A stretch of 64,000 nucleotides of DNA from Defluviitaleaceae bacterium (lineage in GTDB: Bacteria > Bacillota > Clostridia > Lachnospirales > WRAX01), in assembly GCA_009784615.1 (NCBI GenBank), contig WRBJ01000004.1, positions 1 to 64,000 on the forward strand, read 5' to 3'. Shown in pieces: positions 1-50,821 of the stretch; the first letter of the stretch is position 1; every line of letters begins with the position of its first letter. The notes under the pieces were generated by a model. It saw nothing but the letters and a program-made list of their open reading frames with translations, was not told where the DNA came from and ran no database searches. Made by a program: the position numbers and the translations under genes.

Positions 1-113
1 AAGAAAACAGCTTGTCGGGGTGGGATTTCCCTAACAAAGCAATCCACCACGACAAGCCTCTCTCAGCCCTAAGACCTAAGTGTAGGATAACACACTTCAG
101 GTCTATTTGTCAA
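1..113 (-). ncRNA. Copy A of a repeated small-RNA-like element: promoter, dyad and terminator-like hairpin, read leftward; may continue off the window edge
   Basis: Minus strand: TTGACA (108-113), 17-18 nt spacer, TTATCC/TATCCT; imperfect dyad AGACCTAAGTGT..ACACTT(C)AGGTCT (72-104); hairpin 10-57 GCTTGTCGTGGTGGATT-GCTTTGTTAGGGA-AATCCCACCCCGACAAGC followed by TGTTTTCTT. Closely similar to 50542-50661. Confidence 0.65.
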
Positions 114-150
114 GCATATTATTATCAGTCTTAGCAGGCTGATTTTTTAT

Positions 151-50541: not shown

Positions 50542-50661
50542 TTGACAAATAGACCTAAGTGTGGTAACATCTACTTAGGTTCGTGAGGACTTAGAAGTTT
50601 GCTTGTCGTGGTGGAACGCTTTGTTAGGGGGTTCATTACCACGACAAGCATTTTCTTCTTT
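50542..50661 (+). ncRNA. Copy B of the repeated small-RNA-like element (promoter to terminator)
   Basis: TTGACA (50542-50547)-17-TAACAT (50565-50570); dyad ACCTAAGT-N12-ACTTAGGT (50553-50580); hairpin 50601-50649 GCTTGTCGTGGT..ACCACGACAAGC then ATTTTCTTCTTT. Confidence 0.75.
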
Positions 50662-50821
50662 CCGTTCTGCTCCCTTCGGGTCGAGCATAATCATAATACA
50701 CCATTTAGCGAATTTTGTCAAGGGCTTTTTTATTTTGCTGTATATTGTTACTATATTTAAAAGTTTTTATCAAAAAAGCAATAGCACTATGCTATTGCTT
50801 TTTGTGTTTAAAACCTATGTC

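Follow-up and report, generated by a model that had tools for sequence, protein, structure and literature searches.

A multi-copy hairpin element with two facing promoters and a hypervariable loop: possible chromosomal antisense control cassettes in Defluviitaleaceae

Two copies of the element in the window

The window analysed here, a stretch of 64,000 nucleotides from a Defluviitaleaceae bacterium, carries two copies of a short repeated element. Copy B lies between truA and an open reading frame on the minus strand, whereas copy A is cut by the start of the contig. An earlier note on this DNA had described copy B as a self-contained small-RNA unit with a promoter, a dyad, a 12-bp stem, a mini-helix and a U-rich tract, and had placed a second copy on the minus strand at 1-113. 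We found all of these features, and copy A as well, at their coordinates, but the unit is not self-contained: the element is one half of a convergent promoter pair. The features are:

50542-50570, plus strand: antisense promoter of copy B, -35 box TTGACA (50542-50547), 17-bp spacer, -10 box TAACAT (50565-50570); seen in the sequence and kept in nearly all copies
50553-50580: dyad ACCTAAGT (50553-50560), N12, ACTTAGGT (50573-50580), lying over the -10 box; candidate operator, both arms covarying across copies
50577-50661, plus strand: predicted antisense RNA of copy B, about 85 nt, its 3' end being the hairpin and U-rich tract; deduced from the promoter position and the terminator-like hairpin
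50593-50659, plus strand: outer helix AGAAG (50593-50597)/CTTCT (50655-50659), weak in copy B, with the 3' arm inside the U-rich tract
50601-50649, plus strand: inner hairpin with 12-bp stem GCTTGTCGTGGT (50601-50612)/ACCACGACAAGC (50638-50649), drawn from sequence and covariation
50613-50637, plus strand: hypervariable apical region with mini-helix GAAC/GTTC (50614-50617/50631-50634) and loop GCTTTGTTAGGGG
50650-50661, plus strand: U-rich tract after the inner stem
50693-50721, minus strand: opposing (mRNA-side) promoter of copy B, -35 box TTGACA (50721-50716), 17-bp spacer, -10 box TATTAT (50698-50693); at a comparable position in 95 of 100 copies
1-113, minus strand: copy A, truncated by the start of the contig; -35 box of the antisense promoter at 113-108, dyad at 73-103, hairpin with arms at 41-57 and 10-27 around a loop at 28-40
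124-150, plus strand: terminator-like hairpin for the opposing transcript of copy A, where other copies have a gene; a similar hairpin stands beside other gene-less copies

The outer helix encloses a U-rich internal segment and is stronger in other copies than in copy B (GGACTGGGAAT/ATTCCCGTCC; ACTTGTA/TACAAGT). The opposing promoter is kept in copy B, and that of copy A would fall past the end of the contig. Five contigs of this genome start within the element (C4:1, C13:1, C16, C38 and C14, window 1-113 among them). Since the loops at the starts of C4 and C13 are identical, as are those of C16 and C38, the assembly probably broke on repeated copies.

A dispersed family with facing promoters and adjacent genes

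Searching the genome of the window at the DNA level gave 19 copies. The earlier note had proposed a covariance-model search for homologs; a model built from 16 of these 19 copies recovered 23 in the same genome and about 100 across the family, with 102 copies entering the family alignment. The copies are spread over 9 of the 16 family genomes examined (5 of 11 genera), and one genome, G013, holds about 52. No copy was found in the incomplete (68%) genome of G001, which belongs to the same genus as the window, so that the element may be patchily distributed even inside a genus. Beyond the family, scans of 395 genomes from the order and 392 from the class yielded just five weak single matches (about 30-35 bits), which are not counted as members; such scans score only a few candidates in each genome, and weak copies may escape them. 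The promoter motif was absent from the viral contigs searched and present in five public contigs, four of them named Defluviitaleaceae Lab288P1bin54 and the fifth Emb289P1bin130. Judging from isolate names and from a paper that reportedly deals with genomes assembled from termite gut (PMC7024585), rather than from a direct match to the window, the carriers appear to be termite-gut bacteria. The earlier note's impression that this is not a known Rfam family held: Rfam 15, at gathering and relaxed thresholds, gave no match in the window and no family at the element in six loci (E up to 1). Nor did we find the element described in the literature searched, most subscription journals lying outside that search.

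At the far end of the element, facing the dyad promoter, a second promoter of the form TTGAC[AGT]-17/18-near-TATAAT is present in 95 of the 100 copies with enough sequence to test (mean score 12.5 versus 9.2 for shuffled sequence). The two promoters, both strong and of the sigma-70 type, stand about 140-220 bp apart. In G011, G013, G014, G015, G004 and at least seven copies of the window's genome, a strong ribosome-binding site and start codon follow the dyad promoter at a distance of about 20-65 nt. The predicted opposing transcript would pass the hairpin and the dyad before reaching this gene, giving an mRNA whose 5' UTR is about 180 nt long; as far as promoters can be recognised from their letters, the dyad promoter lies inside this leader and its transcript would run opposite to the mRNA. 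Because the opposing promoter would drive the neighbouring gene through the element, the hairpin RNA would be antisense to the 5' UTR of that gene. Hence the earlier reading as a small regulatory RNA family stands as regards a real, structured family; it does not stand as regards a stand-alone unit, the RNA being complementary to the 5' UTR of the opposing transcript.

Most intact copies have a short gene just past the element. The majority of these genes encode regulators with single or tandem AbrB/MazE-fold domains (MazE/AbrB family matches), others a copper-amine-oxidase N-domain protein, a zinc-ribbon-like protein or small proteins without a Pfam match. Close paralogues of the adjacent genes differ on average at 0.26 of synonymous versus 0.03 of nonsynonymous sites, which indicates purifying selection and thus real coding genes. 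In five loci of G004 (L094, L100, L105, L151 and L153) the AbrB-type genes are disrupted by premature stop codons or have no usual start codon, and the promoters and hairpins are still intact. On the mRNA strand of L085, L025 and others, TTTGTCAAG, the complement of the antisense -35 box, can pair with CTTGACAAA directly upstream of the ribosome-binding site, at variable spacing. The inner half-sites of the dyad differ among gene subfamilies within G013, which would fit subfamily-specific regulators.

About 13 of the 23 copies in the window's genome, A and B included, have no gene. Around nine of them adjoin a short terminator-like hairpin in its place, mostly AATCAGCCTG..AAGACTGAT, and their loops are diversified too. 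Decay after duplication, action in trans and selfish spread might each account for such copies. Close copies resemble each other approximately as far as the end of the gene on one side and, on the other, for up to about 50-460 nt beyond the right edge of the modelled core, the flanks being otherwise unrelated; whole cassettes have thus been copied, with sharp limits, into new locations. A dispersed repeat, CTGGATTGCTTCGGGGTTC...CGTAGGAACGTCCCTCGCAATGACGG, often adjoins the element (right flank of L012, L013, L016 and L022; left flank of L009 and L010).

Covarying stems and a hypervariable loop

All 25 modelled base pairs have changed on both sides among the 102 aligned copies, and 94% of cells are paired, in an alignment that leans towards the structure because it was fitted to it. 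None of 500 shuffles reached the observed level of covariation, and sliding the partners by one column lowered pairing to 40-51%. Stem arms taken without fitting, GCTTGTCGTGGTGG, GCTTGCCTG, CACGCTGGGTGG, GTGCGTGGGG and TTGCCTGTCTG, each face their own complement. The structured non-coding unit of about 80 nt proposed earlier, with a dyad over its promoter and a covarying stem, is thereby borne out. Read from the sequence, the RNA has a stable stem-loop with a probable terminator, the U-rich tract following the inner stem.

The strand of this RNA can be approached through isolated non-Watson-Crick pairs, since an A.C pair on the antisense strand is a G.U pair on the other. Under strand-neutral scoring the hairpin stems contain 22 G.U versus 6 A.C pairs on the antisense strand, a contrast whose p-value is only indicative because the copies are related and the counts not independent. 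The dyad shows no G.U strand bias under the same scoring. These strict counts replace a looser one (95 versus 13) that was inflated through internal-loop mispairing, and a count on the model-fitted alignment, which leans to the strand of the model, was not relied on.

In subfamily alignments no part varies as much as the apical region, and promoters, dyad and stems are almost unchanged. The earlier note had reported a conserved identical loop: it is indeed shared by copies A and B and three others, but family-wide the loop is the least conserved part. Among pairs of copies from one genome that have a flank identity of 92% or more (21 pairs), mean loop identity was 0.67, compared with 0.95 in the right linker and 0.54 for shuffled loops; as loop identity in gapped alignments saturates near 0.5, no rates can be read from these numbers. 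Of 21 pairs of close paralogues, 17 diverged more in the loop than at synonymous sites (for L125/L134, loop difference 0.53 and synonymous difference 0.10), although this contrast is smaller than that against the flanks. Every full-length copy within a genome has a distinct loop, an observation that is partly ascertained, since assembly collapses copies with identical loops.

Possible functions and comparison with known systems

We consider it somewhat probable that the element is a chromosomal, multi-copy cis-antisense control cassette that acts like plasmid countertranscript RNAs and carries a copy-specific loop. The opposing promoter would produce an mRNA with a long leader followed by the short gene, commonly encoding one or two AbrB/MazE-fold domains. 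From inside this leader the dyad promoter would produce a short hairpin RNA that ends in a U-rich tract and is complementary throughout to a stretch of about 75-130 nt in the leader. The mRNA might then be repressed by pairing initiated at the loop, by transcription collision, or by both. A regulator bound at the dyad might set antisense output, and one of the family's own AbrB-type products is a possible candidate. Against this reading, the ribosome-binding site lies outside the antisense RNA. A switch at this site was also considered and rejected, folding giving a weak and inconsistent change in accessibility (0.40 free versus 0.30 bound). As stems are kept while loops diverge, each copy would recognise mainly its own message, and as the loop differs in almost every copy, each may control only its own gene. 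A further point against the cassette, and the main unexplained one, is that gene-less copies have diversified loops too, for which control of a private gene would not account.

These gene-less copies, which are many, speak for an action mainly in trans, in which a constant scaffold would aim a variable seed loop at other mRNAs and copies without a gene would be the pure form. CUUU, common in the loops, can pair with AAAG of Shine-Dalgarno sites, and 11 nt overlapping the ribosome-binding site of a small lipoprotein-like protein (L216:16472, G000:C29) are exactly complementary to loop CTTTGTTAGGG, a match not above chance in the sample tested. In that sample, 463 kb of the own genome with 408 gene starts, own-genome loops reached a mean best match of 8.87 nt to start regions, compared with 8.22-8.75 for loops of other genomes and 8.1-8.7 for shuffled loops, so that no clear enrichment at ribosome-binding sites was seen. 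The conserved opposing promoter and the adjacent gene would also be left unexplained, and we regard trans action as the main role as rather unlikely.

A function of the sense strand, as an attenuator or riboswitch in the leader of the downstream genes with a secondary antisense promoter, would account for the fixed 5' UTR position before several gene families, and the dyad can fold in the mRNA as well. Such a reading appears quite unlikely to us, because the G.U pairs lean to the antisense strand, nearly every copy has a near-consensus antisense promoter, and hypervariability is not expected of a ligand-binding core. Dispersed copies, unrelated flanks, sharp limits of similarity, the spread of gene-less copies and contigs that break inside the element might all be expected of a palindromic miniature mobile repeat without regulatory role, in which quasi-palindrome repair during replication would yield covarying stems while loops drift. 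However, two opposed near-consensus promoters are kept across genera, the U-rich tract is on one strand only, the G.U pairs are biased by strand and loops diverge faster than synonymous sites. We therefore judge a mere mobile repeat very unlikely.

Beyond cis-antisense control of single genes, it is conceivable, though tentative, that up to tens of orthogonal antisense switches operate per cell over AbrB-type factors, their loops being held different by diversifying selection. This would be comparable to plasmid incompatibility groups inside one chromosome, in one lineage of gut bacteria. The orthogonality of antisense pairs has been studied mostly with plasmids and engineered attenuators. If the reading is true, the new RNA family would be a natural case of many coexisting antisense RNA-target pairs with specificity in the loop, and about 100 natural loop variants on shared scaffolds would form a dataset for antisense orthogonality. 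It would also point to an expansion of AbrB-type regulators in uncultured Clostridia that is apparently controlled by RNA.

Among known systems, the closest architecture is that of ArrA in Bacillus subtilis. This antisense RNA lies opposite the dnaA 5' UTR, ahead of the open reading frame, and its promoter is repressed by DnaA, a transcription factor and itself the product of the regulated gene (PMC12112137). There too the antisense RNA covers a 5' UTR, but ArrA is a single locus with a demonstrated repressor, while the regulator at the dyad is only proposed here. To our knowledge, ArrA has no multi-copy family or variable loop. The Ibs-Sib type I toxin-antitoxin repeats of E. coli are likewise multi-copy, with paralogous antisense RNAs that carry recognition domains (PMC4147584). 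Sib RNAs, however, cover the open reading frame and ribosome-binding site of small toxic proteins, whereas here the antisense RNA would reach the leader alone and the genes mostly encode predicted DNA-binding proteins. A type I system with a small hydrophobic toxic peptide was accordingly set aside, most target genes matching AbrB/MazE-fold families. We also rejected plasmid replication control, as the copies are scattered over genome contigs before AbrB-type and other genes, with no rep gene as target.

The plasmid countertranscript RNAs (pT181, CopA, I-complex RNAI) nevertheless share with the element a convergent antisense promoter in an mRNA leader, a short stable stem-loop RNA and specificity in the top or interior loop rather than in the stem (PMC10724649, PMC3753616). 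With IncK RNAI, it is changes to the top and interior loops, not to the stem, that alter compatibility (PMC10724649), the same split between constant stem and variable loop as seen here, and mutations in the pT181 hairpin gave orthogonal pairs (PMC3753616). Unlike these RNAs, the element is chromosomal, reaches tens of copies per genome and has a dyad over its antisense promoter. What is new is hence an RNA family with chromosomal multiplication, an association with AbrB-type genes and a hypervariable loop, the type of control itself being already known.
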